The translations under genes and the position numbers were made by a program. Of a stretch of DNA of 64,000 nt, positions 4,882 through 61,710 are shown piece by piece. Source of the DNA: Pseudomonadota bacterium. GTDB lineage: Bacteria; Pseudomonadota; Gammaproteobacteria; Burkholderiales; Methylophilaceae. The notes beneath the pieces are model-generated. The model saw nothing but the letters and a program-made list of their open reading frames with translations. It had not been told where the DNA came from and made no database searches. Within the stretch, counting starts at the first letter, position 1; every line of letters begins with the position of its first letter. The DNA lies in the NCBI GenBank assembly GCA_029556915.1, contig JAKQIT010000111.1:159105-223104 (forward strand), read 5' to 3'.

Positions 4882-4940
4882 CAGCCTGTAAGCCAGTATC
4901 TACGCGGCTTCCAGAGGTGCTTTTCTCGCTAGGAGAAAAT
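4882..4940 (+). repeat. Dispersed intergenic palindrome, copy 1
   Basis: First of thirteen copies in the window. Arms CCTGTAAGCC and GGCTTCCAGAGG surround the 11-nt loop AGTATCTACGC. The tail is followed by a separate small hairpin, TTTTCTC and GAGAAAA around gctag. It lies upstream of the DUF2798 gene, inside the island between murU and amgK. Strand is given by the direction of the CTC-containing tail. Confidence 0.8.
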
Positions 4941-4993
4941 ATGGGCGGCAAATTAGGCATTTTAAAGCATCTTAAAATCAATGCTTAACGAGC

Positions 4994-5012
4994 GTATTCT
5001 GTATCAGAATAC
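4994..5012. other. Perfect 8-bp hairpin in intergenic DNA
   Basis: GTATTCTG and CAGAATAC form a perfect inverted repeat with a TAT loop. No run of T follows on either strand, so it is not a standard terminator. It lies downstream of the minus-strand gene at 5075-5359, where it could still protect or end a transcript. No gene is visible in 4941-5074. Confidence 0.45.
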
Positions 5013-5074
5013 TTTGCATCATTTTCGCTTAAATCATATAGAGTCCGACCCATTAATTTTCGAGGCTACGCTTA

Positions 5075-5359
5075 CTATGATTGTTTAAAGGGTTTCTTGC
5101 GAATTAACCGAATTACCTTCAGCAGCGTGAAAAATAAAATGATTGCGCATAGCGTATTAACCCACATCATTGTGAATTTGTGCCTAAGAGGGGGGGTCAC
5201 GTAGCTGCTGATATAAAAATCTATTTGGGGACCAAAATACATCAAAGGATAAACAACTGAAAGCCCTAACAAATCGACAAGAACACTGCTCCAACTATCC
5301 TCTCTTCCCTTTTCAGTCAGCCATTTGTCAAACTTACATAGATACTTTTTCCCCCTCAT
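5075..5359 (-). CDS. Unknown two-helix membrane protein
   Basis: A 94-residue basic protein with hydrophobic stretches at about 26-44 and 64-83 and a lysine/arginine-rich C-terminus, consistent with a small inner-membrane protein with both ends in the cytoplasm. No recognised family. It begins 22 bp after the end of amgK on the same strand, so it may ride on the amgK transcript. It is the first gene of the island separating amgK from murU. A real gene seems likely from length and hydrophobicity, but there is no homology support. Confidence 0.5.
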   Translation of the reverse strand: MRGKKYLCKFDKWLTEKGREDSWSSVLVDLLGLSVVYPLMYFGPQIDFYISSYVTPPLRHKFTMMWVNTLCAIILFFTLLKVIRLIRKKPFKQS

Positions 5360-5381
5360 TATTTGTTACCTTTTCCAAAAA

Positions 5382-6398
5382 TCACAGCTTCAACAACTTC
5401 TTATAATTCGCATCGGGGTGTTGATCTTGCCCACTTAAACTATCGAGCAAGCGCAACATCGGCCTTAACTCTGTGTAACGCTCGCAAGCTTTGCGTAAAT
5501 AGGTCATCACCAAGGGCATGTCTTTTAAGTAGCCGTCTTTGCCATCGCGATGATATAGCCGTGCAAAAATACCCAGCACTTTAATGTGGCGTTGCGCGCC
5601 CATATATTCAAAATCTTTGTAAAACTCACTAAAGTCTTCTGGCACGGCTAAGCCAGCTTTGCGCGCGTTTTGCCAGTAGCGCACTAGCCAGTCAATAATT
5701 TGGTCTTCTTCCCAGCTAATGTAGGCATCTTTGAGTAGCGAGACTAAATCGTAGGTAATCGCGCCGTACACCGCATCTTGAAAATCCAGCACACCCGGGT
5801 TATTTTCTTGTGTAATCATCAGGTTACGTGAGTGATAGTCGCGGTGCACATACACTTGTGTTTGCGCGAGAATATTTTTATTCAGCAAGTTAAAGGTGCT
5901 AGTGAGTACCGCTAGTTGCTTTTCATCTAGGGTAACGCCCAAATGTTTGGCAATATACCAATCAGGGAAAAGTTGCATTTCACGCGTGAGCAAGGCTTCA
6001 TCATAATTTGGCAGCACATTGGGCTGGCTGGCAAGTTGCAGTTTAATTAAGGCGTTGTTGGCATCTGTATAAAGTTTGGGCGCGCTGGCATTATCCAATT
6101 GCGACAAATACGTGTCGTTGCCCAAATCATTGAGCAGCAAAAAACCCCTGTCTAAATCTTGCGCGATGACTTTGGGCACATTTAAGCCAGCTTCACCAAA
6201 CAGTTTGGCAATACGCACAAATGGCTCGCAATTTTCTTGTGGCGGTGGAGCATCCATCGCAATTAGAGTTTGATAGCTTGTGTGGACTCTAAAATATCGC
6301 CTGAAGCTCGCATCAGCCGAGGCGGTGGTGAGGGAGAAGTCGGTTTGTGGTAGGGCTGCTTTTAACCAAAGTTGAAGTTCTTGCTGTCTATTATCCAC
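5382..6398 (-). CDS. amgK: N-acetylmuramate/N-acetylglucosamine kinase AmgK
   Basis: An aminoglycoside-phosphotransferase-fold kinase that phosphorylates the anomeric carbon of MurNAc (and GlcNAc) in cell-wall recycling. Visible motifs: the catalytic loop VYVHRDYHSRNLMI and the metal-binding GVLDFQDAVYGAITYDL, with the N-terminal ASFRRYFRV segment. The open frame extends to an ATG at 6488, but that ATG lacks a Shine-Dalgarno sequence and adds 30 unconserved residues. The GTG at 6398 has AGAAAG upstream and gives 338 residues, the usual family length, so I prefer it. Divergent from lptD, the common proteobacterial arrangement; its partner murU is displaced to 2627-3328. Confidence 0.85.
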   Translation of the reverse strand: MDNRQQELQLWLKAALPQTDFSLTTASADASFRRYFRVHTSYQTLIAMDAPPPQENCEPFVRIAKLFGEAGLNVPKVIAQDLDRGFLLLNDLGNDTYLSQLDNASAPKLYTDANNALIKLQLASQPNVLPNYDEALLTREMQLFPDWYIAKHLGVTLDEKQLAVLTSTFNLLNKNILAQTQVYVHRDYHSRNLMITQENNPGVLDFQDAVYGAITYDLVSLLKDAYISWEEDQIIDWLVRYWQNARKAGLAVPEDFSEFYKDFEYMGAQRHIKVLGIFARLYHRDGKDGYLKDMPLVMTYLRKACERYTELRPMLRLLDSLSGQDQHPDANYKKLLKL

Positions 6399-6530
6399 GA
6401 CTGTCTTTCTAATGTTATATAATGCGATTTTATCACTAACGATTGTATCCATCATACTAAACTGTTTGGCTAAATTACTCGTGTTCATTCATTCTGATAT
6501 GCATTATTTAGCCGTTTTTCTACTGACTTC

Positions 6531-8966
6531 ATGCTAAAAATTCGTTTTTACATCTCTGTTTTGATTGCCTTGCTTATGACGAGCATCAGCACCTATGCTG
6601 CAGATGATATTGTAAAAATTGCCGACAACAGCTACCCATCATTAAGTAATGATGTATCAACAGAAACATTGCAAGACGCCAAGGCAGCTACCGAAACTGC
6701 TGAAAACACTCAAGATGCGGTAATCATTGATGGCGATAAAGTTGATTTTTATTTAGACCGTAAAATTCGCGCTACGGGCAATGCATCTATCCGACAAAAT
6801 GACAAAACTATTTCGGGTGATAGTATCAACTATGATGTGCAAAACGATCAACTAGATGTTAAAGGCAATGCGCAAATCAATGTTGGCAACGCCAAAATCA
6901 CGGGCCCCGCCCTGCAAATGCAGTTGTCGGACGAAACTGGCGAAATGACTGATGCCTCTATCAATTTATACAAGTCCGTCCCAAATGAAAATCAAGGCGT
7001 GCGCATCAGTTCTGAGGCCTTTGCTAAAAGTTTAGGCAGCTTACAAAGTCAGCAAATTGGCGGCGTGAGTTCTTACTCTATTGGCACAAACACAAACCAA
7101 ACACTTGATACTGAAGCTAAACCTTATTCTAGTGAGCCGCATGCTACATCCGCCCGAGGTGATGCAAAAGCAATTTTATTTGAAGGCCAAGACTCAAAAC
7201 GCCTCACAGAAGCGCGCTATACCACTTGCGCAGCAGGTGTAGAAGACTGGTATATTAAAGCCAAAGATTTAGAAATTAATGACTACACTGAATCAGGTGT
7301 AGCAAGAAACGCTTATATTGAATTTAAAGGCGTGCCCATTTTATATTCACCTTGGGTGAGTTTTTCTTTTAATAATCAGCGTAAAACGGGCTTACTTGCG
7401 CCATCATTTGACACCTCGACCAAAACTGGTTTTGGTATCACTATTCCATTTTACTGGAACATTTCTCCCAATATGGATGCAACGTTTGCCACCCGTGCGT
7501 TAAGTAAGCGCGGTGTGCAACTACAAGGGGAATTTAGATACTTACAAGAAAACTTTTCTGGTATAGACAATGTGGAGTTTTTACCTACTGACAACCAAAC
7601 TGGCGAAAACCGCTACTACGCCAATTTAAAGCATCAGCACAACTTGGGGCGCGGCTGGTCTGCTGGCTACAGCCTTGAGAAAGTCTCTGATGACCAATAT
7701 TTTTCTGATCTTTCAACGCGTATCGTCACCACTAGTCGTATTAACTTACCGCAACAATTTAATGTGGACTACGCAGATGAACATTGGCGATTTAACGCTT
7801 TGGCACAAAAGTTTCAAACGCTTGATCTTTCATCGTACCCGTATGAACGATTGCCACAGCTTACCTTAAACGGAAGCCACAACTTCGGTGATTTCAACAC
7901 CAATCTTTATACGCAATTAGTGGCGTTTGACACTAACAACCAAGCTCCTGTCACGGTAACGGGGACGCGCTTTACTGTGTTTCCAAGTATTAGCATGCCT
8001 ATCAATCGCGCTTATGGATTTGTTATCCCTAAAATTGGCATTCACCACACCAACTACAGTTTAAATGACGACCCATACCAACAAAATTCTGCCAGTCGCA
8101 CATTGCCAATTTTTAGTTTAGATGGCGGCCTGTATTTTGATCGCGATTTTAAAATAGCTAGGCGTGGTTACTCTCAAACACTTGAGCCTAGAGTTTTTTA
8201 CACGTACATTCCTTACTCAAATCAAAGCAAATTGCCTGTATTTGACACCAGCGAGTCAGACTTGAACTTCAGTTCTTTATTTAGCGAAAACCAATACTCC
8301 GGTAATGACCGTATCAATAATGCTAACCAAGTTAGCCTGTCGTTAACCACCCGCTTAATTGAATCAAGTACGGGCACCCAGCGTTTGTCAGCATCAATTG
8401 GGCAGCGCTACTACTTTGCTGACCAAAAAGTGGGCTTACCTGGTGCAACTTTACGCGACAACAACAGTTCTGACATTATTGCAGGCCTAACCACCAACCT
8501 TAAAACCAGCTGGAATTTAGATGCTTTTTGGCAATACAATACCGACGATTCAAAATCAATGCGCACCACCGTGATGAGTCGCTATAACCCAGAGCCCGGC
8601 AAAGCACTCAATTTAAGCTATAGTTATAGACGTGACTCTATTGACCAATTTGATGTTTCAGCGCAATGGCCACTCAAAAATGGCTGGTATGGTGTTGGCC
8701 GTATCAACTATTCACTCCGCGAAAAACAACTGATTGAAAGCATTGCTGGGCTAGAATACAATGCGGGCTGTTGGCAGGCACGCGCCGTATTGCAACGAAT
8801 AGAAACCGCGACTGCTGATGCCAACTATAACTTCTTATTTCAGTTAGAGTTAGGCGGGCTGGCTTCAATCGGTAATAACCCGCTTGCTGTGATTAAGCGT
8901 AGCGTTCCTGGATATGTCAGCACTGGGCTGATTCCTGACACTTATCAACAACCTTATTACGAGTAA
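6531..8966 (+). CDS. lptD: LPS-assembly outer-membrane protein LptD
   Basis: An 811-residue protein with a signal peptide (cleavage near STYA-ADD), an N-terminal OstA/LptA-like beta-jellyroll (about 60-170) and a large C-terminal barrel domain. It inserts LPS into the outer leaflet together with LptE (encoded at 16128). Only two cysteines remain after the signal peptide, C233 in YTTCAAGVEDW and C747 in GCWQAR. They match the positions of the essential inter-domain disulfide in E. coli, so this protein can form one such bond instead of two. First gene of lptD-surA-pdxA-ksgA, the standard order. A TATAAT lies at 6418-6423, but no good -35 box accompanies it. Confidence 0.95.
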   Translation: MLKIRFYISVLIALLMTSISTYAADDIVKIADNSYPSLSNDVSTETLQDAKAATETAENTQDAVIIDGDKVDFYLDRKIRATGNASIRQNDKTISGDSINYDVQNDQLDVKGNAQINVGNAKITGPALQMQLSDETGEMTDASINLYKSVPNENQGVRISSEAFAKSLGSLQSQQIGGVSSYSIGTNTNQTLDTEAKPYSSEPHATSARGDAKAILFEGQDSKRLTEARYTTCAAGVEDWYIKAKDLEINDYTESGVARNAYIEFKGVPILYSPWVSFSFNNQRKTGLLAPSFDTSTKTGFGITIPFYWNISPNMDATFATRALSKRGVQLQGEFRYLQENFSGIDNVEFLPTDNQTGENRYYANLKHQHNLGRGWSAGYSLEKVSDDQYFSDLSTRIVTTSRINLPQQFNVDYADEHWRFNALAQKFQTLDLSSYPYERLPQLTLNGSHNFGDFNTNLYTQLVAFDTNNQAPVTVTGTRFTVFPSISMPINRAYGFVIPKIGIHHTNYSLNDDPYQQNSASRTLPIFSLDGGLYFDRDFKIARRGYSQTLEPRVFYTYIPYSNQSKLPVFDTSESDLNFSSLFSENQYSGNDRINNANQVSLSLTTRLIESSTGTQRLSASIGQRYYFADQKVGLPGATLRDNNSSDIIAGLTTNLKTSWNLDAFWQYNTDDSKSMRTTVMSRYNPEPGKALNLSYSYRRDSIDQFDVSAQWPLKNGWYGVGRINYSLREKQLIESIAGLEYNAGCWQARAVLQRIETATADANYNFLFQLELGGLASIGNNPLAVIKRSVPGYVSTGLIPDTYQQPYYE

Positions 8967-8968
8967 TT

Positions 8969-10291
8969 ATGTTGCTAATTTTTTTACACCAAATCAAAAA
9001 ATATCTCACCTCACTAACTTTGATGATACTGATGGCGTGCACTCTTAATGCGCGCGCAGCAGATGTGCACAAAATGGATCGTATTGTTGCTGTCGTTGAT
9101 CAAACTGTGATTACTGAGCGCGAGCTTGAAGGCCGTATCGCAACCGTATCCGCACAAATTAAAAAGCAAGGCACAGAAATGCCTGAAGAAAGCATTTTGC
9201 GTAAACAAATTTTAGAGCGTTTAATTTCTGATACTTTGCAAATTCAATACGCAGCACAAACTGGCTTGCGTGTTGATGATGCACAATTAGATAAAACCAT
9301 CGAGCGTATTGCTGAGCAAAATCAGCTCACCCTGACTGAGTTTAGTGAAGCTTTGGCCAGAGATGGTATTAGCATGCGCAAATTTAGATCTGACATTCGT
9401 AGCGAAATCACCATTGCCCGCTTACGCGAACGTGAGGTGGACGGTCGTGTCAATGTAACAGAGTCAGAAGTTGATAATTACTTGACTACCCAAGCCGCTG
9501 CAGGCACCAGTCAAGATGAGTTTGAAATTTCGCACATTCTCATCCGCACACCCCAAGATGGTACGCCAGAAGACATACAAAAGGCCCAAGCTAAAGTGGA
9601 TGATGCAATGAAGGCGCTTAATTCTGGCGCAAGTTTTGCCAAAGTTTCTGCAAGCTATTCTGATGCGCCCAACGCACTAGAAGGTGGTAATTTAGGCTGG
9701 AAACAAGGTGCTCAAATGCCTAATATATTTTTAGAGACGCTAAACAGCATGCAAATTGGTGGATTCTCAGAACCTATTCGCAGCCCTAACGGCTTTCATA
9801 TCCTTAAGCTCACAAACAAGCGTGGCGGCAATTCGCCTTTGGTGGTGCAGCAAACACACGCAAGACATATTTTAATTAAGATTACTGAAATTATGTCTGA
9901 AAAAGATGCAAAAACAAAAATGGATCATTTGAAAGATCGATTAGATAATGGGGAGAAATTTGAAGCGTTAGCGCGCCAATTCTCTGAAGATGGTAGCGCT
10001 TCAAATGGTGGCGATTTAAATTGGGTCAACCCTGGGGATACTGTGCCACAGTTTGAAAAAGCCATGAATGAACTGAAAGAAAATGAAATCAGTGCACCTA
10101 TACGCACGCAATTTGGCTGGCATATTATCCAAGTGATTGAGCGTCGCGGACAAGATATGACCAAAGAAGCCGCCCGCGTTAAGGCGCGCCAAGAAATCCG
10201 CGCCCGTAAAGCCGACGAAGCCTACCAAGATTGGATTAGAGAATTACGTGACCGCGCTTATGTGGAATTAAGACTCGAAGATCAGTTTTGA
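8969..10291 (+). CDS. surA: Periplasmic chaperone/peptidyl-prolyl isomerase SurA
   Basis: A 440-residue exported chaperone that escorts unfolded outer-membrane proteins, including LptD, to the BAM complex. The signal peptide ends around NARA-ADV. The SurA N-terminal chaperone domain (about 35-165, DRIVAVVDQTVITERELEGR) is followed by two parvulin domains. Each parvulin starts with a histidine-containing strand (EISHILIRT near 190 and ARHILIKI near 300) and holds the GG(N/D)L(G/N)W motif. Length and domain order are standard. It begins 2 bp after the lptD stop, so expression is coupled to its main client. Confidence 0.95.
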   Translation: MLLIFLHQIKKYLTSLTLMILMACTLNARAADVHKMDRIVAVVDQTVITERELEGRIATVSAQIKKQGTEMPEESILRKQILERLISDTLQIQYAAQTGLRVDDAQLDKTIERIAEQNQLTLTEFSEALARDGISMRKFRSDIRSEITIARLREREVDGRVNVTESEVDNYLTTQAAAGTSQDEFEISHILIRTPQDGTPEDIQKAQAKVDDAMKALNSGASFAKVSASYSDAPNALEGGNLGWKQGAQMPNIFLETLNSMQIGGFSEPIRSPNGFHILKLTNKRGGNSPLVVQQTHARHILIKITEIMSEKDAKTKMDHLKDRLDNGEKFEALARQFSEDGSASNGGDLNWVNPGDTVPQFEKAMNELKENEISAPIRTQFGWHIIQVIERRGQDMTKEAARVKARQEIRARKADEAYQDWIRELRDRAYVELRLEDQF

Positions 10292-12183: not shown

Positions 12184-12208
12184 ATAAATACTTAAATTGC
12201 ACTAACAT

Positions 12209-12280
12209 TGCCCGTGAAAAAATAATCGGCCTGCAAGCCAGTATCCATGCGGCTTCCAGAGCATCAAAAAGAAGATATGT
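12209..12280 (-). repeat. Dispersed intergenic palindrome, copy 2
   Basis: Core GGCCTGCAAGCC, loop AGTATCCATGC, GGCTTCCAGAGC, between ksgA and adk, which are on the same strand. The CTCGGG-type tail (here degraded, GCCCGTGA) lies on the left, and the core is inverted relative to that tail compared with most copies. The rest of 12184-12399 holds the adk promoter. Confidence 0.8.
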
Positions 12281-12356
12281 TAAAAATGTGCATTTTTAAC
12301 ATAAAAATATAGCCCCAAACGGGTACCATTTTTGAAAAATTTGCGTCTGCAACTTC

Positions 12357-17669: not shown

Positions 17670-17714
17670 TTTTACAAATAGAAATTGTTAAAATTTTAAG
17701 CAAATTTCCCACCT

Positions 17715-17790
17715 AATCATTTCACCACCCCGCCAAGCCAGTCTGGATGCGGATTCCAGAGGCATAAAAATCTCTCGGGGGATTTTTTGC
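17715..17790 (+). repeat. Dispersed intergenic palindrome, copy 3
   Basis: ATCATTTCACCACCCCGCCAAGCC-type left part, loop AGTCTGGATGC, right arm GGATTCCAGAGG, then the tail CTCTCGGGGGAT. First of five copies (3-7) sharing the left flank TCATTTCACC. It separates the holA operon from the ccdAB operon. Confidence 0.85.
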
Positions 17791-17960: not shown

Positions 17961-18206
17961 ATGCAAGTTATTTATGAAACCCAAGCGCCCAAACGCGCCA
18001 CTAATTTAAGCGTGAATAGCGATTTACTCAATAAAGCACGTGCGCTTAATATCAATTTATCGGCTACTTTAGAAGAGAGTCTTATCGCTGTTATAAAGAC
18101 CAAGCAACAAGAAGCTTGGCTTGCGCAAAACAAGCAAGCGATAGAAGCCTATAACCAGCTAGTGGATGAACAAGGTACGTTTTCTGATACCTTACGTGTG
18201 TTTTAA
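17961..18206 (+). CDS. ccdA: CcdA-type antitoxin
   Basis: An 81-residue antitoxin. The N-terminal half (KRATNLSVNSDLLNKARALNINLSATLEESL) has the ribbon-helix-helix pattern used for DNA binding. The C-terminal part ending YNQLVDEQGTFSDTLRVF resembles the toxin-binding tail of CcdA. The frame opens at a TTG at 17943, but the ATG at 17961 has a strong AAAAGGAA site. The ccdB toxin starts 11 bp later. It would both neutralise CcdB and repress its own promoter. Confidence 0.85.
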   Translation: MQVIYETQAPKRATNLSVNSDLLNKARALNINLSATLEESLIAVIKTKQQEAWLAQNKQAIEAYNQLVDEQGTFSDTLRVF

Positions 18207-22483: not shown

Positions 22484-22543
22484 CTTTCGTAATCCGCCGT
22501 ATAAAAATTTTACCTTCGGCGTATTACGTTGCACTAATACGCC
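22474..22543. repeat. Tandem pair of 9-bp hairpins
   Basis: GGCGGATTA / TAATCCGCC with a 7-nt loop (22474-22498), followed by GGCGTATTA / TAATACGCC with an 8-nt loop (22518-22543). The two stems differ by one compensated base pair. I recall GGCGGATTA...TAATCCGCC hairpins as common intergenic repeats in several proteobacteria. They could stabilise or terminate the upstream transcript, although no T-run follows immediately. Confidence 0.7.
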
Positions 22544-22605
22544 CTACATACTGAGCCAATTTTTTACATATATTTAATTGCTTTTTTAGCTCAAATTTAA
22601 CACAA

Positions 22606-22680
22606 CATCATTTCACCTTCTCGCTAAGCCTTATTCTATGCGGCTTGCAGAGGCATGAAATTCTCTCGGGCGATTTTTGT
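22606..22680 (+). repeat. Dispersed intergenic palindrome, copy 4
   Basis: Left part TCATTTCACCTTCTCGCTAA, loop TTATTCTATGC, right arm GGCTTGCAGAGG, tail TTCTCTCGGGCGAT. The loop is identical to that of copy 10, 24 kb away. It lies just upstream of the glycosidase gene, with copy 5 just downstream of it in the same orientation. Confidence 0.85.
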
Positions 22681-24022: not shown

Positions 24023-24110
24023 ATCACCATTCTCGCTAAGTGCTAAAGCACTAAGTCGAATGCGAAACCCAGTCTCAGAGGAATAAAATTCTCTCGGGCG
24101 ATTGTTTGGC
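24023..24110 (+). repeat. Dispersed intergenic palindrome, copy 5 (divergent core)
   Basis: Outer parts match copies 3, 4, 6 and 7 (ATCACCATTCTCGCTAAG on the left, CAGAGGAATAAAATTCTCTC then GGGCGATTG on the right). The usual arms and loop are replaced by different sequence containing its own palindrome AGTGCT-AA-AGCACT at 24039-24052. It lies between the convergent glycosidase and bioD genes. Confidence 0.75.
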
Positions 24111-29395: not shown

Positions 29396-29469
29396 CGGAC
29401 TAAGTTTCTGCAAAATTCACCGCACAATACACACAAAAAATTGCTTAAAATTTAAGCAATTTAATACCA

Positions 29470-29540
29470 AATCATTTCACCTCCCCGCTAAGCCAGTCTG
29501 CATGCGGCTTGCAGAGGCATAAAAATCTCTCGGGCGAAAA
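29470..29540 (+). repeat. Dispersed intergenic palindrome, copy 6
   Basis: Left part ATCATTTCACCTCCCCGCTA, loop AGTCTGCATGC, right arm GGCTTGCAGAGGCA, tail TCTCTCGGGCGA. Over about 64 bp it differs from copy 7 by a single base. It sits between the convergent ends of comF and the PepSY gene. Confidence 0.9.
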
Positions 29541-29553
29541 TATTGCGAAAAAA

Positions 29554-30666
29554 TCAGGCGTTAGACCGTTTATGTCGCCAACGCATAATGCCCGTGACAA
29601 ACAAAATTAGTGGTACAAATCCACTAAAAAAAATCAACCAGCGACCAAACAAACCAAAGGCTTCACCATTATGCAAAGGGTGCAACCATGCAACTACGGT
29701 GTCACCAAAAAAATCCTGCCTCGCATCCCGAACGGCCAGTATTTCCCCTGTGTATTGCTCAATCCACACCATCGTTTTAGGAAAACGCCGCCCGACTTCA
29801 CCCGCCTGATACAGTCTCACTTGATAAACGCCTTGCGCGTTATCTGGCGTGTAAATCCAGCGCACCTCAGCTTGCGGAAATCGTTGCTTTGCCATTTCGA
29901 CAGCTTTATCCAAGCTAATAGCAGGCTGGCCATTGGCTTGTGATACCGCATTTTTGGGCTCAAATAATGGCGCTGGCATGGCAAGGGTAGATTCAAACCA
30001 GTGCGGCTTTTCCAGCATTACGCCGGTCACACTAAGCACTAGCAAAAACACACAGCCAAGCAAGCCTGCGGTTTTATGCCAGTCATACACGCGCCGTTTA
30101 ATATGGGCGTTTTTTCGCCAAGCAAAAGCAGATTTAAAATGACCACTGCGCGGCCACCACAAATACAAACCAGAACCCACCGAGACTAGTAACAATAAGC
30201 CGATGATTGCCAAAACTGTTTTACCAGTCTCTTCCAGCAACAAAGTATAGTGTAAGTCATACAACCATGTGACGGCAAAATCCCCCCAAAAGCGCGATGA
30301 GGTGACAGCCAAGGATTGTGGGTCTATGGTGACTACCAGCGGCGCAAAATGTTTGCCAGCTTTTTCTTCAGCTTTCATGTAGCGCGCCATGATTGGCCTA
30401 GACGCATTTAAGGGCATTTCAATGCGCCAGCCTAATGTACGCTCAGGAAATTGCGCACGAAGTTGATTAAGCACGGCTTGCGACGACACTGGCGCGCCAA
30501 TATTTGTGCTAGTCGCAATATGCGGATTAAGGGCTTGGTCAATCTCTGGATAAAACACCAACAAACTACCAGTCAGCCCCAGCAGCACGGCAAAGCCGCC
30601 AAGCAACAAGCCCAGATAAAGATGCGCCGCCAGCCAATAACGGCGCATTTTATTTCTTTGCGTCAT
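29554..30666 (-). CDS. PepSY-associated transmembrane protein (iron-uptake type)
   Basis: A 370-residue inner-membrane protein with four main helices: near 10-37 (LAAHLYLGLLLGGFAVLLGLT), 145-170, 195-218 and 335-360. The extracytoplasmic part has PepSY-like stretches, for example DKAVEMAKQRFPQAEVRWIY. Proteins of this kind (PiuB/FoxB-like) accompany TonB-dependent receptors and are thought to help reduce or release ferric complexes. The start overlaps the TonB receptor stop by one base (TAATG), so the two form one operon. The ligand is unknown. Confidence 0.85.
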   Translation of the reverse strand: MTQRNKMRRYWLAAHLYLGLLLGGFAVLLGLTGSLLVFYPEIDQALNPHIATSTNIGAPVSSQAVLNQLRAQFPERTLGWRIEMPLNASRPIMARYMKAEEKAGKHFAPLVVTIDPQSLAVTSSRFWGDFAVTWLYDLHYTLLLEETGKTVLAIIGLLLLVSVGSGLYLWWPRSGHFKSAFAWRKNAHIKRRVYDWHKTAGLLGCVFLLVLSVTGVMLEKPHWFESTLAMPAPLFEPKNAVSQANGQPAISLDKAVEMAKQRFPQAEVRWIYTPDNAQGVYQVRLYQAGEVGRRFPKTMVWIEQYTGEILAVRDARQDFFGDTVVAWLHPLHNGEAFGLFGRWLIFFSGFVPLILFVTGIMRWRHKRSNA

Positions 30667-32711
30667 TACATTTTAAAGTTAACTGACAAATACACAGCGC
30701 GACCATCGTTGGGCGCATGCATACTGATGTCCGGGTTTGGTGTGGTGTTCCACCAAACGTACTCATAATAGCGGTCTGTAAGATTTTTCACTTGTAAATC
30801 TAGGCTGATATTGTCGCTCCATTGATAATTGGCATAAGCATCATACACGGTAAATTTTCCAAACTTGCCCACTGTATTATCCCGCTCAATATAAGCCGCA
30901 CTCTGCCCGCGCAAGCTTAGCCCAAAGCGCCATTGTGGCGTGGCTTGAAAATCTACCCCGCCAGAATACAAATGATGTGGCACGTGGTCAATCTCGTTAC
31001 CTTGCGTTGAAAGTGAAGCCGCATCTGCTTTCAATATTTTAGAATCTTGCCAAGAATATGAAAGCCACACGTTAGTGTTATCAGTGGGGCGGGCATTTAA
31101 CTGCAAATCCACGCCGTCACGTTTGGTTTTGCCTATGTTTTCCGAATCATTATTCGCATCACCCAATTTACGGCGCGCTTCATTTTTTGCGCGTTGCTCC
31201 CACACGGCAACACGACCATCCAACCAATTGACCGGCTTAAATTTCAAACCTGCCTCCCAGCCCTCGTTAATCGAGGCTTCAAGGTCGCTGGTTTGGTTGA
31301 CTTTATACGAAGCCGTGCCTACCCCCACTTGAAATGTTCGTCCCCAGTTGCCATATAAACTATAGCCTTCAATCGGCGTCCAAACCGCACTGAATTTTGG
31401 TTGGTCTATATCGCCGTAATCATTAATTTTATAGGTGCGGCCATTAAGATAATTGGTGTAATCGCCATCAATTCTATCTACACGATACGCCGGAATCAGT
31501 TTAAGAGATTCAATCGGCTGAATAATCGCCTGAACGTATGCGCCTTTAGTGTCAAAATCAAATTGCTGATCCCGCGTCTTTGCCGTGCGCACGCGTTTGT
31601 TTGTGCTGTAACGCTCGCTCTCATTATCTTGCCACTCTTGGTCAAAACCGCCCTCGAGCGCAAAACGATGCAAGAAACTCACCTCTGGCCGCCAGGTCAG
31701 TGTTGTTAAATAGCCGGTATGGCGCTCTTTGGTGACACGTTCTTGCTGGCCCTGAAAAGACGAAAAAGTCACCCAGCGGGTCGCATCTATCTTATTAAGG
31801 TAAGTCTTGGCAGAAAAAGATAAGGTATCAGAAATCGCCCAATCCAGATGACCACTTAAATGGTCCATGTCACGGTCTTCTCCATCTGTCGCATTATGCG
31901 CCATGGATTGCTCATCATCATCGTGCGCTTGCGCTTTGGTTAAATAACCTGGCTCATCTGCTTCGTGATTATAGGTTCTGGCAATCAAGCCAATTTTAAA
32001 CTTTTGGCTATCCGGCGTAAAAAACCACTTGCCCGCTAAGCTGTATTTATCTGAATCCGAATGATCGCGATAACCTTCATAACCTTGCACTGCGGCAAAA
32101 TAGTTTTGTGAAAAGCCATTTTTTTCAATACCTGCGGCAAACTGGCCTTCCATCGTATTAAAGCTGCCATAAGTAGCGCGCGCCTGCACGTAGTCGCCAC
32201 CTTGCTTGGTAATCATATTGATATTGCCCGCAATATTATGCAGGCCATAACGCGGGTCGTTAGTGCCGCGCACCACTTCAATTGCTTCTAGCTCAAGCGG
32301 AAACACCATATCCATATAGCGCATATTGCCATCGTTGGTGTTGCTCGGAATACCATCAATAAGCAACTTCACCGCATTGATTTCGCCCTCGCCGTTAAAC
32401 GCTCTAAAAGATGGTTTGCCTGATTCCGCACCTTGTTTAAATTCAGTCAGTTGCACACCAGGCATTTGCCCTAGCAACTGCCAGCTATTGGCCACATTTT
32501 GGTTTTCAATTTTGTCTGCACCTAATACATCCACAGAACTCAGTACGCTACGCGTGAGTAAAGGCCCGGTTTTTGAGGCAGTAACCTTCACCTCACCCAG
32601 CACTAAAGTTGAATCGCCATCTTCAACTGGCTCGTTTACCTCAAAATGTTCTGCTTTAGCGGCCTGAGCAAATAGTGCCAAAATGGCAAACACAATATAC
32701 TTTTTCTGCAT
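30666..32711 (-). CDS. TonB-dependent outer-membrane receptor
   Basis: A 681-residue receptor with a signal peptide ending near KA-EHF. The plug domain (about 45-160) contains VTASKTGPLL, a likely TonB-box neighbour, and VEVVRGTNDPRYGLHNIAGNIN. The rest is a 22-strand barrel ending in the aromatic RAVYLSVNFKM. The linked PepSY protein suggests a ferric siderophore or other iron chelate; the barrel does not reveal which. The operon is bracketed by repeat copies 6 and 7, which are almost identical. Confidence 0.9.
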   Translation of the reverse strand: MQKKYIVFAILALFAQAAKAEHFEVNEPVEDGDSTLVLGEVKVTASKTGPLLTRSVLSSVDVLGADKIENQNVANSWQLLGQMPGVQLTEFKQGAESGKPSFRAFNGEGEINAVKLLIDGIPSNTNDGNMRYMDMVFPLELEAIEVVRGTNDPRYGLHNIAGNINMITKQGGDYVQARATYGSFNTMEGQFAAGIEKNGFSQNYFAAVQGYEGYRDHSDSDKYSLAGKWFFTPDSQKFKIGLIARTYNHEADEPGYLTKAQAHDDDEQSMAHNATDGEDRDMDHLSGHLDWAISDTLSFSAKTYLNKIDATRWVTFSSFQGQQERVTKERHTGYLTTLTWRPEVSFLHRFALEGGFDQEWQDNESERYSTNKRVRTAKTRDQQFDFDTKGAYVQAIIQPIESLKLIPAYRVDRIDGDYTNYLNGRTYKINDYGDIDQPKFSAVWTPIEGYSLYGNWGRTFQVGVGTASYKVNQTSDLEASINEGWEAGLKFKPVNWLDGRVAVWEQRAKNEARRKLGDANNDSENIGKTKRDGVDLQLNARPTDNTNVWLSYSWQDSKILKADAASLSTQGNEIDHVPHHLYSGGVDFQATPQWRFGLSLRGQSAAYIERDNTVGKFGKFTVYDAYANYQWSDNISLDLQVKNLTDRYYEYVWWNTTPNPDISMHAPNDGRAVYLSVNFKM

Positions 32712-32795
32712 CCAAAAACTCCCTCGATATTTTATATAGCTTTATTTTTTGATAACTCATGAGAGTTTACTTGGTTTAAGTCACCTTGATAATGT

Positions 32796-32806
32796 GACAA
32801 ATTGTC
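32796..32806. promoter_or_regulatory. Small palindrome upstream of the TonB receptor gene
   Basis: GACAA-A-TTGTC, 85 bp before the receptor start, with GATAAT just beside it. It might be a repressor or activator site for the iron-uptake operon. A full Fur box (three GATAAT-like hexamers) is not present. Confidence 0.3.
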
Positions 32807-32868
32807 GCAGGCCGCTAGTAAATATGTAGTATAAAAATTAATGCAAAATTCAGATATTTTTAGCACAT

Positions 32869-32940
32869 ATCATTTCACCTCCCCGCTAAGCCAGTCTGCA
32901 TGCGGCTTGCAGAGGCACAAAAATCTCTCGGGCTAAATTT
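32869..32940 (+). repeat. Dispersed intergenic palindrome, copy 7
   Basis: Near-identical to copy 6 and in the same orientation, 3.4 kb away. It lies in the divergent region between the TonB receptor (-) and trmL (+), where a terminator would serve no obvious purpose. Confidence 0.9.
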
Positions 32941-32975
32941 CACGCCTAAAAAGGCTTGTTCAGTTACAATAGCGC

Positions 32976-39748: not shown

Positions 39749-39778
39749 GGTAAAAAAGTATTTTAAAAGTGCCATTTT

Positions 39779-39855
39779 ACGCCAGAGCGAATTTTATGCC
39801 TCTGGAAGCCGCATGGATACTGGCTTGCAGAGCATCGCGAATGATGTAATGAAAA
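39779..39855 (-). repeat. Dispersed intergenic palindrome, copy 8
   Basis: Forward reading: CGCCAGAGCG tail at left, arm CCTCTGGAAGCC, loop GCATGGATACT, arm GGCTTGCAGAGC, then ATCGCGAATGATG. Sits between envC and the copper-storage gene, both on the plus strand. Confidence 0.85.
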
Positions 39856-39949
39856 TATAAGCTTAAACTTGCTGTATTAAATTGCTGATAAACTGGGTGA
39901 AAAACCAACGTTTAGCACCCTACAGATTAACTTTTTTGAGGAACTTATC

Positions 39950-42325: not shown

Positions 42326-42404
42326 AAGCTAAAAGTGAGCGAACCCAGTGCGTAAAAGTGTGTTTTTAAAAAAGTAAAACCAAACTCAATATTTGCTGAA
42401 ATCA

Positions 42405-42475
42405 ATCCCGAGAAAATTTAGCACCTCTGGAAGCCGCATCCAGACTGGCTTGCAGAGGTGCTAAAATGATGTGCC
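42405..42475 (-). repeat. Dispersed intergenic palindrome, copy 9 (longest stem)
   Basis: Arms at 42417-42435 and 42447-42465 pair over 18 of 19 positions around the loop GCATCCAGACT; the only mismatch is the G:G at the family's invariant unpaired position. CCCGAGAAAA forms the tail at left. It separates two unknown minus-strand genes. Confidence 0.9.
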
Positions 42476-42509
42476 TCTAAAACGCACGTTGAAATGAATA
42501 AAAAACCGC

Positions 42510-46541: not shown

Positions 46542-46572
46542 CTGCTTAAAACAAGCTGAAAATCATTTCATT

Positions 46573-46644
46573 TCGCCCGAGAGAAAATCATCGCCCTGCA
46601 AGCCGCATAGAATAAGGCTTCCAGAGCATCAATTATGAAGATGT
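46573..46644 (-). repeat. Dispersed intergenic palindrome, copy 10
   Basis: Tail CGCCCGAGAGAAAATCATCG on the left, arm CCCTGCAAGCC, loop GCATAGAATAA, arm GGCTTCCAGAGC, then ATCAATTATGAAGATG. The loop is the reverse complement of that in copy 4. Lies between convergent lpxH and the HD-GYP gene. Confidence 0.85.
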
Positions 46645-46658
46645 GTAATAATTAACGG

Positions 46659-52739: not shown

Positions 52740-53017
52740 CCCTAGAATTGATGCGTTACTGCCACGCTAATAAACTATGGCGTATATTGTAACAATTTGT
52801 GAAAAATGGCAATGAATTACGAAGTGGGCGGTGCAGAATCACGGTAGATTTTTGCGTTATTTTGGCTGTGAAAAAGTCTAAAAATCAGCACAAATCGCCA
52901 TCAAATCATTTTCGATGCTCTGGAAGCCGCATGGATACTGGCTTGCAGAGGCGTTAAAATTTCTCGGGGGATTTCAATGCTTTTTAAAGCTTTTTTAATC
53001 GTGCAATTTCCAGCTAT
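52740..53017. other. Gene-free stretch between transporter and dynamin genes
   Basis: The only gap above 300 bases in the window (52734-53062 in total). It holds the presumed transporter promoter region, repeat copy 11 and the terminator at 53018-53045. No open frame with coding character was seen. Confidence 0.5.
52904..52975 (+). repeat. Dispersed intergenic palindrome, copy 11 (inverted core)
   Basis: Arm CTCTGGAAGCC, loop GCATGGATACT, arm GGCTTGCAGAGG, tail AATTTCTCGGGGGATTT on the right. Relative to the tail, the core is the reverse complement of that in copies 8 and 12. Lies between two minus-strand genes. Confidence 0.85.
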
Positions 53018-56401: not shown

Positions 56402-56713
56402 ATGCCTGAAATTCGATGCAAAAAAGTATTATTCTATTCATCTGGTGACGAGGAAATCTTTTTCAACTGGGCAAAGTCAATTCCAGCGATTAAAGATGTT
56501 TTTGGTGAGTCTGATGAAATTATATTATCGGTAAAATCAGCTGCGCTTGATGATGACTCCTTGCGTGAGCTCATAGCACTTTTGCATCGTTACAAATTAC
56601 CTCTACATCAACTTGCTAAATTCAAAAACGAGAAAAACCAAGATTGGTTTAGTAATGAAAAAAAATTTTGGTATAACGCGGTTTTTATCAATAAGGACGT
56701 CACCGTCCATTAA
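56402..56713 (+). CDS. Unknown small protein inside the ubiEJB operon
   Basis: A 103-residue soluble protein I do not recognise. It starts MPEIRCKKVLFYSSGDEEIF and is rich in charged residues, with a predicted alpha/beta mix (EIILSVKSAAL, DDSLRELIALLHRYKL). The frame is open to 56357, overlapping ubiE; the ATG at 56402, four bases after the ubiE stop, is more natural. It lies 17 bp before ubiJ. Its AT-richer composition suggests a newcomer to the operon. Confidence 0.65.
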   Translation: MPEIRCKKVLFYSSGDEEIFFNWAKSIPAIKDVFGESDEIILSVKSAALDDDSLRELIALLHRYKLPLHQLAKFKNEKNQDWFSNEKKFWYNAVFINKDVTVH

Positions 56714-56730
56714 CATAGTCTAAAGCCCGA

Positions 56731-57312: not shown

Positions 57313-57316
57313 AATT

Positions 57317-58894
57317 ATGCGATTTTTCCGACTCATTTACATCATTTTTATTGCGCTACGCTTTAGCTTAGATGATTTAATTCTTTCGCACACCAAACTC
57401 AAACCTTTACAGTTTGTCATCAATGGCTTGTTATTTTGGCGCAATAAAAAACGCCCACGGGGTGAACGTTTGCGTTTGGCACTTGAGGCACTTGGCCCAA
57501 TTTTTGTCAAATTTGGACAAATTCTTTCCACGCGGCGAGATTTAATACCGCTTGATATTGCTGACGAACTTGCCAAACTGCAAGATCAAGTACCACCCGT
57601 AGCATTCAGCGAAGTAGAAAGCACCATTAACGCTGCTTATGCGCTGCCTTTGCCTGACGTATTTTTAAGTTTTGATGAAACTGCCGTGGCAAGCGCTTCT
57701 GTGGCACAAGTGCATTTTGCGCATTTGTTGGATGGCACGCCTGTTGCAGTAAAGGTATTGCGGCCAAATATTGATAAAGTCATCGGGCGCGATTTGGTCT
57801 TGCTCGACACGGCGGCTTGGCTACTCCAAGCCCTTTCTGCCGAAGGTAAACGCCTCAAGCCGCGTGAAGTGGTAGCAGAATTTGCCGAACATACGCAAAG
57901 TGAACTAGATTTAACTTTAGAAGCCGCCAATTGCACACGTTTGTCAGGTAACTTTAAAGATAAACGCCTGTTGGTTCCTGACGTGTATTGGGATTGGTGC
58001 CGCAAAGAAGTGATGGTGATGCAACGCATGAACGGCACGCCGATTAGCAAAATTGATGTGCTGCGTGCAAAAGGCATCAACATTGAAAAACTCGCCCACG
58101 ATGGTGTAGAAATCTTTTTTACCCAAGTGTTTAGAGATGGTTTTTTTCATGCCGATATGCACCCTGGCAATATTCAGGTGGCCGATGACGGCCCTGATAA
58201 AGGTAAGTATATTGCGCTGGATTTTGGCATTATGGGCACACTCACCGATAACGATAAATATTACCTCGCGCGCAATTTTTTAGCCTTTTTTAACCGTGAT
58301 TACCGCGACGTAGCTGTGGCGCATATTGAATCTGGCTGGGTACCTAAAGACACCAACGTGGAAGCACTCGAAGCCGCTGTGCGGGCTATTTGCGAGCCCA
58401 TTTTCAACAAGCCACTGAAAGATATTTCGTTTGGCCGCACTTTGTTGAGTCTATTTCAAATGTCGCGTAAATTTGGCGTGATTATTCAGCCGCAATTGGT
58501 GATGTTACAAAAAACCTTGCTGAATATTGAAGGCTTAGGCCGTGATTTAGACCCCAACATTGACCTTTGGCAAACAGCCAAACCATTTTTAAAACGCTGG
58601 ATGAGTGAGCAACTGGGTTGGCGGAGCGTATTAAAGAATTTCAAAAAAGAATTACCGCATATTGCTAAAGACTTGCCGCAAATGCCACGCTTGGTGCATC
58701 ACTTTTTAACCCAACAAACCAATGCGGAGCAACAAGTGCCGTTACGTGAAATCATTGAGACCCTAATTAAAACGCAAGAAAAGCAAGCACATTGGCAAAA
58801 ATGGCTGACTTTAGCGGTGTTGGTGCTAATTGCTTTACAACTTTTTGTTTTAGTTAAACCTTGGCTTTGGGAAATGTTTTCTACTGCAAACTAA
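57317..58894 (+). CDS. ubiB: Ubiquinone biosynthesis kinase-like protein UbiB
   Basis: A 525-residue ABC1/ADCK atypical kinase. The family's KxGQ segment is in FVKFGQILSTRRDLIP, the alanine-rich loop is ASASVAQVHFA, the catalytic HADMHPGNI and metal DFGIMG motifs are intact, and two C-terminal helices anchor it (WLTLAVLVLIALQLFVLVK). Thought to use ATPase activity to extract quinone precursors from the membrane. Confidence 0.95.
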   Translation: MRFFRLIYIIFIALRFSLDDLILSHTKLKPLQFVINGLLFWRNKKRPRGERLRLALEALGPIFVKFGQILSTRRDLIPLDIADELAKLQDQVPPVAFSEVESTINAAYALPLPDVFLSFDETAVASASVAQVHFAHLLDGTPVAVKVLRPNIDKVIGRDLVLLDTAAWLLQALSAEGKRLKPREVVAEFAEHTQSELDLTLEAANCTRLSGNFKDKRLLVPDVYWDWCRKEVMVMQRMNGTPISKIDVLRAKGINIEKLAHDGVEIFFTQVFRDGFFHADMHPGNIQVADDGPDKGKYIALDFGIMGTLTDNDKYYLARNFLAFFNRDYRDVAVAHIESGWVPKDTNVEALEAAVRAICEPIFNKPLKDISFGRTLLSLFQMSRKFGVIIQPQLVMLQKTLLNIEGLGRDLDPNIDLWQTAKPFLKRWMSEQLGWRSVLKNFKKELPHIAKDLPQMPRLVHHFLTQQTNAEQQVPLREIIETLIKTQEKQAHWQKWLTLAVLVLIALQLFVLVKPWLWEMFSTAN

Positions 58895-58908
58895 TTGAGT
58901 TAAGAGAT

Positions 58909-59748
58909 ATGAGAAACCATTTATCTAAAATTATTGCAATCTTGTCTTTTAGCTTTAGCTTAAACGCCAGCGCAACTGAGATTTTAGTTCCTGCTTATTT
59001 TTATCCGTCTAGCGATCCCAACCTTAGTTTTTGGGATGAAATGACGGCCGCTGCCAGCCAAGGCGTTGCTATTACGGCGATTATGAACCCCAATAGCGGG
59101 CCCAGTAACGTAATCAATAGTGACTACACAGCCGCTGTTGATACTTTTCGAGCCGCTGGTGGCAAAGTGATTGGCTACGTCAGCACGCAATATGGCGCGC
59201 GTGATGCCAGTGCGGTGCTCGCGGATGTGAATGCTTACAAAAATTTCTACCAAATTGATGGCATTTTTTTAGATGAGATGCACAATATTCCTGCAACATT
59301 AAATTATTACCAAACGTTGCGAAACGATATTTCTACCATCGACACCAATTATAAAGTGTTTGGCAATGCTGGCACCAACACGCTTGAGGCTTACATTGGC
59401 GCGGCGGATGTGCTGATTACCTTTGAAAATCAAACAGGTTTTAATAGCTATACACCTGACGCTTGGACGGCCAATTACTCCGCCAGCCATTTTGCCAACT
59501 TGCTTTACAACGTGAGTTCTGCAGCAGAAATGCAATCAGCCATTAGTCTTGCGGCTAGCCGCAATGTGGGCTATGTTTACGTCACTAATGACAATGGCGC
59601 GAACCCTTGGGATACCTTGCCAAGCTACTGGAATGCAGAAGTCGCGGCAGTCTCCGCCGTGCCAGAACCGAATAACACTGCCTTATTATTGGTGGGCTTG
59701 AGCTTATTAGGTCTGCAAGTTAAGCGTCGCAAAATTAGGGCTGAATAA
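58909..59748 (+). CDS. PEP-CTERM-sorted Spherulin-4 family protein (possible glycosidase)
   Basis: A 279-residue exported protein with a signal peptide (SFSLNASA-TEI). The body matches the Spherulin-4 family: LVPAYFYPSSDPNLSFWDE, ITAIMNPNSGP, KVIGYVSTQYGARDASAVL and IDGIFLDEMHNIPAT, a TIM-barrel-like pattern with likely catalytic acidic residues. Fungal Sph3 of this family is a glycosidase of galactosaminogalactan (GH135). The C-terminus has the full sorting signal: VPEPNN, hydrophobic helix, then RRKIR, which exosortase systems recognise in EPS-producing bacteria. The ATG at 58909 is preceded by AAGAG; it follows ubiB by 14 bp. Confidence 0.85.
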   Translation: MRNHLSKIIAILSFSFSLNASATEILVPAYFYPSSDPNLSFWDEMTAAASQGVAITAIMNPNSGPSNVINSDYTAAVDTFRAAGGKVIGYVSTQYGARDASAVLADVNAYKNFYQIDGIFLDEMHNIPATLNYYQTLRNDISTIDTNYKVFGNAGTNTLEAYIGAADVLITFENQTGFNSYTPDAWTANYSASHFANLLYNVSSAAEMQSAISLAASRNVGYVYVTNDNGANPWDTLPSYWNAEVAAVSAVPEPNNTALLLVGLSLLGLQVKRRKIRAE

Positions 59749-59770
59749 TCTCTTTAATCGGCTAAAAATT

Positions 59771-59844
59771 CCCCCGAGAGAAATTAACACCTCTGTAAGC
59801 CGCATGGATACTGGCTTGCAGAGCATGCCGAATGAAGATGCATG
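59771..59844 (-). repeat. Dispersed intergenic palindrome, copy 12
   Basis: Tail CCCCCGAGAGAAATTAACA at left, arm CCTCTGTAAGCC, loop GCATGGATACT, arm GGCTTGCAGAGC, then ATGCCGAATGAAGATG. Lies between the convergent Spherulin-4 and mutM genes. Confidence 0.88.
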
Positions 59845-59847
59845 TTT

Positions 59848-60669
59848 TTAACGCTTTTGGCAATGCGCACAAAAAAACGTTGAACGTTGCCCTAACCGAA
59901 TATTTTTAATCGCTTTTCCACACACTTTGCACGGCTCGCCCGTGCGCCCATATACAAAATACTCTTGCTGAAAATAGCCTGGGTTGCCATCGGTGCCAAA
60001 AAAATCGCGCAAGCTGCTGCCGCCCGCATCAAGCGCATCTTGCAAGGTGTTTTTAATTTCGGCAACCAATCGTTCGCATTGCTTTAAGTTTAGCTTTTTG
60101 GCGGAGGTTTCAGGGTGTATGCGCGCCCGAAATAGCGATTCACTCGCATAAATATTACCTACTCCCACCACTACATACGCATCCATAATTGCGTTTTTGA
60201 TAGCGAGCGTTTTATTACCTAAGGCAGTATGTAAATAATCTGCATCAAAGGCTTCTTCTAGCGGCTCAGGGCCTAAACTATCGAGCAATGCGTGGTTTTT
60301 ATTTTCCAACCACAGCACCGCGCCAAAGCGACGTGGGTCGCGCAAACGCAGCACACTACCATCGGTAAAGGCAACATCAAAATGGTCATGTTTTTCAGGC
60401 GGATAAGCTCTATCTAACACTTGCATACGGCCTGACATGCCAAGATGCAAAAGCAAAAACCCATGTGTTGTGGGGTTGCCAAATTCGCACAAAATATACT
60501 TAGCGCGCCGCGTTAGGGCTTTTAAATTGAGCTCAGGTAGCGTTTCAATTAAATGCTGTGGAATGGGCCAGCGCAAGGTCGGGTGACGAATGCTGACGGA
60601 TTTAACCGTTTTGCCCACCATCGGCAGCATGCCACGGCGCGTGGTTTCAACCTCTGGGAGTTCGGGCAT
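59848..60669 (-). CDS. mutM: Formamidopyrimidine-DNA glycosylase MutM (Fpg)
   Basis: A 273-residue base-excision enzyme removing 8-oxoguanine. PELPEVETTRRG supplies the catalytic proline (after Met removal) and glutamate. The middle has the helix-two-turn-helix AIMDAYVVVGVGNIYASESL. The C-terminal zinc finger is CKVC...CAHC with the RLGQRSTFF tip. Length is standard. It is followed by repeat copy 12 and preceded by the DUF4340 gene 7 bp away. Confidence 0.96.
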   Translation of the reverse strand: MPELPEVETTRRGMLPMVGKTVKSVSIRHPTLRWPIPQHLIETLPELNLKALTRRAKYILCEFGNPTTHGFLLLHLGMSGRMQVLDRAYPPEKHDHFDVAFTDGSVLRLRDPRRFGAVLWLENKNHALLDSLGPEPLEEAFDADYLHTALGNKTLAIKNAIMDAYVVVGVGNIYASESLFRARIHPETSAKKLNLKQCERLVAEIKNTLQDALDAGGSSLRDFFGTDGNPGYFQQEYFVYGRTGEPCKVCGKAIKNIRLGQRSTFFCAHCQKR

Positions 60670-60676
60670 ATTTAAA

Positions 60677-61588
60677 CTACTTGCTTGGCAAGTTTATCGG
60701 CGGGTTCAGCATGGTAAACCCAACATCAGGCGGATAATTATAAATTAAGCCTTCATCTGGGCGACCCAATAGTAAGTTTGGCGACTCTTGAATTTTATCG
60801 AAATGTACTTTGGTACCATCCGCCATTTTTACTTCAAATGATGGATAGGTTTCGCGGTTAGACGCAGGATAAAAATCAACTGAACTAGCAGGATTTTTAA
60901 GCCATGAAAATTCTAACCATTCATTGAGTTCGTTTTGCTGCGGTTTTGCTGCTGCAATTGACGCTTTCCATTGCCCTGACACTAAATCGATATTGAGTTT
61001 GCTTTCAGCCCATTGTTCAAGTTTACTAAAATCAAATCCGGCGACTTTTTCGGTGGGTTTAAGTGGATTTTTATCAATTAATTCAATTGCTTGCGTATTA
61101 GCAATTTCCTCATAAACGCTGGCGATTAAATATACTGCATTGTCGTGCAGCACATATTGCTCATCGGTCACAGGGTTATGCGCACCAAAATCAAACTGCG
61201 CAACACTGGCATCAGGGCGTATCAGTTTGAGTTTAAGCCGTGGATTATTTAAGCCAAACTTTTCTAAGTCCGCACTACTTGCCCCAGTAATAGCCAGTTT
61301 TTCTTTAGACTTTGCCGCAATAATCGAAATAATACGTGCCGCAGAATCTTTATCTGCACGCGTTTTGTAAGGCGCGGTTAGCCGCCAAAATCCATCCACC
61401 TTGGCTAGCGTCACCGCCGCTTTGGTGGGGTGCTCTATGCTGATAGCGCTGAAGTCGGCCAATTTAAAAGCTGTAAGTTCTATGGCATTTTCTTGCGTGA
61501 CTTCAGTTTTAGGGCGCAAGTATAAAAAAGCCACCAACCCTGCCACCAAACCTAGCAAAATAAAATTGATTATCCAACGATTTTTCAT
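60677..61588 (-). CDS. DUF4340 domain protein, partner of GldG-type ABC system
   Basis: A 303-residue protein with one N-terminal helix (WIINFILLGLVAGLVAFLYL) and an exported beta-rich body, matching DUF4340 (FWRLTAPYKTRADKDSAARI, KFGLNNPRLKLKL, QYVLHDNAVYLI). Such genes are nearly always next to the GldG/GldF-like ABC genes, as here, although repeat copy 13 now lies between it and the GldG gene. It may be a periplasmic accessory of that transporter. Confidence 0.85.
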   Translation of the reverse strand: MKNRWIINFILLGLVAGLVAFLYLRPKTEVTQENAIELTAFKLADFSAISIEHPTKAAVTLAKVDGFWRLTAPYKTRADKDSAARIISIIAAKSKEKLAITGASSADLEKFGLNNPRLKLKLIRPDASVAQFDFGAHNPVTDEQYVLHDNAVYLIASVYEEIANTQAIELIDKNPLKPTEKVAGFDFSKLEQWAESKLNIDLVSGQWKASIAAAKPQQNELNEWLEFSWLKNPASSVDFYPASNRETYPSFEVKMADGTKVHFDKIQESPNLLLGRPDEGLIYNYPPDVGFTMLNPPINLPSK

Positions 61589-61642
61589 GTGTAACTTTCT
61601 AAAATTTTATCTGCATAAAATTAATGTTTTTTATGCAAAAAG

Positions 61643-61710
61643 CCCTCGAGAAAAAATAAATGCTCTGCAAGCCAGTATCCATGCGGCTTTCAGAGCATCA
61701 AAATGATTTG
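61643..61710 (-). repeat. Dispersed intergenic palindrome, copy 13 (inverted core)
   Basis: Tail CCCTCGAGAAAAAATAAA at left, arm GCTCTGCAAGCC, loop AGTATCCATGC, arm GGCTTTCAGAGC, then ATCAAAATGATTTGC. Core inverted relative to its tail, as in copies 2 and 11. It lies within what is elsewhere a continuous gldG-DUF4340 unit. Confidence 0.88.

Follow-up and report, generated by a model that had tools for sequence, protein, structure and literature searches.

The stretch of DNA analysed here (the window, 64,000 nucleotides) occupies positions 159105-223104 of contig C16 in a Methylophilaceae assembly of 3,275,171 bases and 165 contigs (GCA_029556915.1, our G000; completeness 99.99, contamination 5.65), and it carries repeated copies of a palindromic element of about 75-85 bp that is probably, or was once, mobile. 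A sequence-only reading of the window had listed thirteen copies. All are real, twelve of them as full elements, and the one at 24023 is interrupted by a second repeat. Using an nhmmer profile trained on the copies of contigs C14 and C16 (threshold E<=1e-4), we recovered 13 elements in the window, namely twelve of those listed and a new copy at 2918-2994; in the 24023 copy the right part alone scores (E=1.8e-4). The bare hairpin AAGCC-N11-GGCTT, with at most one mismatch, has 16 occurrences in the window where 3.3 would be expected, and 0 of 100 shuffled sequences reach 16; three of the 16 are chance-like, and the split copy at 24023 is not among them.

Copies on the forward strand lie at 4863-4943 (43.6 bits), 17704-17788 (67.3 bits), 22595-22679 (70.6 bits), 29459-29541 (70.8 bits, in a convergent gap and used below as the representative), 32857-32940 (68.1 bits, in a divergent gap) and 52898-52975 (63.2 bits), together with the split copy at 24023-24110, whose ends are approximate. 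The reverse strand carries those at 12204-12284 (45.0 bits), 39774-39856 (64.4 bits), 42400-42481 (70.7 bits), 46570-46650 (62.8 bits), 59765-59843 (70.6 bits, convergent gap) and 61636-61719 (50.7 bits). Judged by the open reading frames (ORFs), the four listed copies said to lie between convergent genes do so (24023, 29470, 46573 and 59771). The statement that no copy lies in a coding region does not hold, since the overlooked copy at 2918-2994 (reverse strand, 54.8 bits, peptide INFQSTALQASNHEACRGIKNPRAHL) is in frame within murU, encoding N-acetylmuramate-1-phosphate uridylyltransferase (2627-3328, reverse strand; NCBIfam NF045761, 348.4 bits, cut-off 250). No curated Rfam model reached its gathering score in the window, and the two sub-threshold matches in 29400-32960 had E values above 1.

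The unit has a fixed geometry, running from a left box through a short spacer to an imperfect hairpin and, after about 10 bp, the right box CTCTCGGG. In the representative copy the left box AATCATTT, recognised from column conservation, is at 29470-29477, the hairpin core AAGCC-N11-GGCTT at 29490-29510 and the right box at 29527-29534, all on the forward strand. The whole hairpin can be written CCTCTG-n-AAGCC, an 11-nt loop and GGCTT-n-CAGAGG, with the pair adjoining AAGCC/GGCTT mismatched in 74 of 117 copies. Conservation is concentrated in the left box, around ATC(A/T)TT, in the arms, in the loop and in CTCGG at +39 to +43; the T at -18 and the C at -17 are present in 96 and 97% of the 94 copies with a forward loop. 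The arms, the 11-nt loop and the one-sided tail described from the letters alone were all borne out, and the conserved left box is added to them. Relative to the tail, the loop is oriented one way in 94 copies, reversed in 23 and unclear in 3, so that roughly one copy in five has its hairpin inverted with respect to the flanks. Pairing between the arms holds in 76.6% of cells, compared with 24-48% for slid partners (55 of 120 copies aligned). When 13 window copies were folded as single-stranded DNA, z ranged from +0.28 to -4.95 and was below -2 in five, the strongest hairpin being that of 42400-42481 (-17.4 kcal/mol, z -4.95). A second, AT-rich hairpin around CTCTCGGG was considered and rejected, arm pairing within copies being 2.82 versus 2.96 between copies (103 boxed copies). 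Neither direct nor inverted repeats are in excess immediately at the element ends, and no terminal inverted repeats were found there; with no direct-repeat excess right at the ends, target duplication was considered and rejected.

Across the entire host genome there are 212 exact cores and no instance of the mirrored control. We scanned 720,855 bp of this genome, contigs C14 and C16, with the profile and found 120 elements, approximately one per 6 kb. The same sequence holds 68 exact cores, and a rough extrapolation gives 370 copies for the whole genome, a figure that contamination may inflate. The assembly contains two GluQ-RS genes that are 67% identical (on G000:C161 and G000:C14), consistent with its stated contamination. 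A simple purpose-made gene caller gave 673 genes and coding fractions of 0.888 and 0.880, and by its calls the 120 copies fall into 53 in tandem gaps, 44 in convergent gaps, 10 in divergent gaps and 13 in genes by midpoint. Where gaps measure 100 bp or more, the element occupies 37 of 44 convergent ones, compared with 53 of 172 tandem (p=1.8e-10) and 10 of 56 divergent ones. When all gaps of 60 bp or more are summed, convergent ones contribute 15% of the bases and hold 44 of the 107 intergenic copies (p=2.6e-11), and the median distance from element to stop codon is 33 bp. A concentration at gene 3' ends is supported by this placement. In tandem gaps the flanks are oriented evenly with respect to transcription (24 same, 29 opposite). 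Frequent copies within genes had been named as the observation that would count against an intergenic family; such copies exist, although their share, 11% (13 of 120), falls well short of the 88-89% of the sequence that is coding. The extragenic preference is real and its exclusivity is not.

Orthologous gaps show presence or absence of the element between species. In the relative G160, whose leuS is 80% identical to that of the host and whose gene ends were extrapolated from tblastn matches, 103 adjacent gene pairs are shared with the host; 88 have the element in neither genome, 10 in the host only, 3 in G160 only and 2 in both. The host gap is 69-220 bp longer in nine of the ten host-only cases. 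Within the window, the gap holding 46570-46650 is 117 bp in the host and about 19 bp in G160, and that holding 61636-61719 is 167 bp against about 83 bp; the G160 gap orthologous to that of 12204-12284 also has an element match. That the relative's gaps so often have no element indicates that the element is, or was, mobile. In 100 kb from each of three other relatives (G027, G090 and G102) there was no profile match at E<=1e-3; the host-only gaps that could be compared numbered 2, 3 and 2 respectively. At one gap (C16:40356) degenerate related hairpins were seen by eye in G027 and G090, and therefore some sites may be old. An RNA model, R1, which with 3 base pairs acts chiefly on sequence, has matches in 25 of 150 family genomes, host included, where its counts are lower bounds (at most 30 candidates scored per genome, stricter filters); nine genomes other than the host, with at least 10 matches each, are referred to below as element-rich relatives.

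The 13 genic copies comprise nine that are internal and in frame, three at 3' ends and one 25-bit match, in C14:472201-473271 (putatively mtnA), that we do not trust. The 3'-end copies are in the gene of a REP-associated tyrosine transposase (RAYT; REP, repetitive extragenic palindrome), in an AfpA-like gene and in an unnamed gene (C14:399712-400650). The internal copies are in the genes for MutL, a ZupT-like transporter, a formylmethanofuran-dehydrogenase-B-like (FmdB-like) protein, PabB, an MsbA-like ABC protein, GluQ-RS, TyrA, PolA and MurU, the ZupT-, FmdB- and MsbA-like names being below NCBIfam cut-offs. Eight of the nine use the same hairpin frame (LQAS..AASSG type) and GluQ-RS uses another; codon-shuffled genes score nothing above 10.7 bits with the profile. 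The TyrA region has 73 residues versus 39 in 28 of 29 orthologues and 45 in the remaining one, and a 34-residue stretch of it is without counterpart in any of the 29 aligned. The GluQ-RS region has 72 residues versus 59-60 in most of 21 orthologues (64 in one), and PolA is 38 residues longer than the NCBIfam profile span, G160 PolA being likewise long and element-like at that site. Further in-frame copies are found in relatives, in MutL of G137 (g1) and G139 (g19), in PriA and a PD-(D/E)XK protein of G038 (g22), in HrcA of G160, and in histidine kinases of G137 and G160, where element peptide and context are nearly identical. As judged from predicted translations, element-encoded stretches thus reside in frame within housekeeping proteins. 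We also considered that target sites might have resembled the element beforehand and rejected this, because the average element-free orthologue resembles the element no more closely at the site than in the rest of the gene (fractions: tyrA 0.375, gluQ-RS 0.429, pabB 0.369). The exception is mutL, where element-free orthologues do show a greater likeness at the site; old copies would account for this.

We consider it probable that these copies belong to one family of mobile elements in Methylophilaceae, each about 75-85 bp long, built on a hairpin, non-autonomous and mobilised by an enzyme that is lost or unrecognised. Such an enzyme would act in trans, recognising the folded hairpin together with the two boxes and copying or moving the unit. 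Single-strand transposition of the HUH, IS200/IS605-like kind may be involved, and it fits better than a DDE-type miniature inverted-repeat transposable element (MITE) because terminal inverted repeats and a clear target duplication are missing. Copies that land where they disrupt a gene, an operon or a promoter would be purged. The survivors would therefore accumulate behind stop codons, most of all where two genes converge, and in parts of proteins that can accommodate additional residues, the element there being readable in one frame along its whole length. Several observations weigh against this interpretation. No mobilising enzyme was found among the candidates considered below. Covariation between the arms is at best marginally above shuffles, with compensatory change unclear in the 55 aligned copies, and two of the 13 folded window copies are no better than shuffled sequences. 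In a wider flank window direct repeats reach 5.19 versus 4.94 in shuffles, a value attained by 2 of 200. One of the ten host-only gaps is shorter than that of G160. The element peptide of PabB and of MurU takes the place of native residues while the length of the protein changes little or not at all, which simple insertion fails to explain.

Perhaps the elements are instead functional 3'-end signals, terminators or protectors of mRNA 3' ends, that were kept and spread by selection. The occupancy of convergent gaps and the short distance behind stop codons are what one would expect of such signals. However, the U-run after the hairpin is missing, and by a simple test just 14 of 234 directions are like intrinsic terminators, so that an intrinsic terminator was rejected. 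The rate of terminator-like structures is also similar in gaps with and without an element (convergent 0.31 versus 0.27, tandem 0.19 versus 0.18), sequence is conserved besides structure, and copies are found within genes as well. We therefore regard this explanation as unlikely.

Other occurrences of the palindrome bear on its origin. Within the 720,855 bp searched, a second palindromic repeat (CATTCGACTTAGTGC...GCACTTAGCGAGAATG) is confined to elements, where it always lies in the right arm of the hairpin. The composite is present at eight places in C14 and C16, inserted at the same point of the right arm, including the in-frame copy in tyrA and window copy 24023, which was assigned by eye and whose own arm is degenerate; a ninth pattern match is due to chance. 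The recurrence at one point suggests that the unit spread as a whole. Outside the family, we searched 399 genomes of the order and, with the host and 12 same-family genomes set aside, found exact or one-mismatch cores in 10 of 386. In G306, from another family, nine identical cores are part of a multicopy repeat (L423-L431) that looks like an insertion sequence (IS), each set back about 50 bp from the repeat's terminus GGCTCATCAGGAAATCGAGTGGGTAA. G314 and a Nitrobacter plasmid have similar ends, and a solo copy in G278 sits between two convergent ORFs. From its ends beginning with GG we presume that the G306 repeat is ISL3-like. The core palindrome might then derive from the subterminal region of such an IS, the elements being solo derivatives moved by its transposase, but this is quite unlikely. 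Clear similarity to the G306 repeat extends over only about 30 bp, the 720,855 bp of host sequence contain no such terminus, a search of 20 contig starts did not yield the transposase, and the elements are without inverted repeats or clear target duplications. The G306 repeat is a lead to the partner of the element and not a demonstrated one. Plasmids and phages gave only short matches to the 80-nt consensus (E 0.6-0.7), and viral contigs no exact core.

The earlier proposal of a classical REP mobilised by the host RAYT is very unlikely, and the REP/RAYT-like reading survives only in the shape and placement of the element, the GTAG and CGTC tags being absent as a family feature and the RAYT link without support. 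The host genome does encode one RAYT (a Y1 transposase, P0001), and an element copy overlaps its 3' end; further host matches to P0001 are element copies encoding its last residues, and the RAYT homologues listed have another C-terminus at this place. Upstream of the host RAYT, however, is a GTAG-tagged REP hairpin, GTAGGGCGCAATAGCTTGCGTATTGCGCC, which is unrelated in sequence to the element. Among the best 80 of at least 585 RAYT loci, 29 have a GGCGCAAT-type hairpin somewhere and none has an element-like one. Only one match to the conserved loop, and none with the stem, was found in 472,619 bp of RAYT loci from other genera. The suggested association with a RAYT was not found among relatives, where P0001 is matched in 1 of 9 element-rich genomes versus 38 of 140 others (p=0.45), that one being a partial match in G134. 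A Y1 hit of some kind is present in G134 and G137, and there is none in the other seven element-rich genomes (G038, G068, G089, G101, G111, G121 and G139), of which G089, G101, G111 and G121 are only 75-87% complete. The RAYT was accordingly rejected as mobiliser. Near the feet of the hairpin in 117 copies we counted GTAG 2, CTAC 1, CGTC 0, GACG 3, CCAC 18 and GTGG 0 times. GTGG is given as a variant REP head in a passage of PMC2817692, and CCAC is its reverse, although it stands on the wrong side for a 5' head. A GTAG-tagged REP-like hairpin of the RAYT's own type, GTAGGGCGTATTAGTGCAACGTAATACGCC, is at 22518-22547 (reverse strand), just before an element copy.

Another route, in place of transposition, would be patch conversion driven by microhomology. 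It would suit the element-like sequence without net insertion in PabB and MurU and the single best element-free pabB orthologue that exceeds every background window, but it is most improbable given that the average element-free orthologue of tyrA, gluQ-RS or pabB is no more element-like at the site and that tyrA and most intergenic cases are insertions.

Among the other genes of the window are one for a CcdB-family protein (PF01845, 18218-18535) behind a small ORF (17961-18206), perhaps a toxin-antitoxin pair, and one for a bacterial dynamin-like protein (PF00350, 53063-55027).

Open-licence literature gave, at the level of titles and abstracts, no account of such repeats, and Methylotenera is absent from the accessible main text of PMC3733652. 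For a probable mobile family of this kind, the high copy number, the clear presence or absence between species and the composite subfamily make searches for the mobiliser and tests of retention practical. The family also adds free-living cases of palindromes encoding parts of housekeeping proteins, including the mismatch-repair protein MutL in two genera. More tentatively, it might represent a protein-coding palindromic element system outside Rickettsiales, untagged and independent of RAYTs, with an undiscovered mobiliser, possibly tied to the IS-like repeat with the same core, and residing in most larger convergent gaps and in housekeeping proteins (MutL in two genera, PolA, PriA).

The element is like REPs with RAYTs in its imperfect hairpin, its dispersal in more than 100 copies, its place at 3' ends and in convergent gaps and its very uneven abundance between species; it differs in having two flanking boxes instead of a GTAG tag and no cognate RAYT that we could find, and we do not count it as a member. 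It resembles a MITE in being short, non-autonomous and palindromic, but lacks terminal inverted repeats and a clear target duplication. Rickettsia palindromic elements (RPE) are reportedly the subject of papers by Ogata and Claverie. CGTC REPs and RPE are described, in the accessible text of PMC3733652, as palindromes in frame within functional genes, including those of replication and repair, with no dedicated transposase known, and the same text states for CGTC REPs that the spread of such transposase-less repeats is an open question. The predicted in-frame genic copies, nine of them internal in 720,855 bp and more in relatives, are the likeness to these; the differences are the absence of CGTC (0 of 117), a loop of 11 nt versus their 4-5, another sequence and a free-living Methylophilaceae host. 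On our best reading, the element would work in a manner comparable to REPs and RPE. It is ordinary in kind, being REP-like and having in-gene copies with known parallels. What sets it apart is that it has no tag, that present evidence gives it no link to a RAYT, and that it recurs so regularly at convergent ends and in housekeeping proteins.

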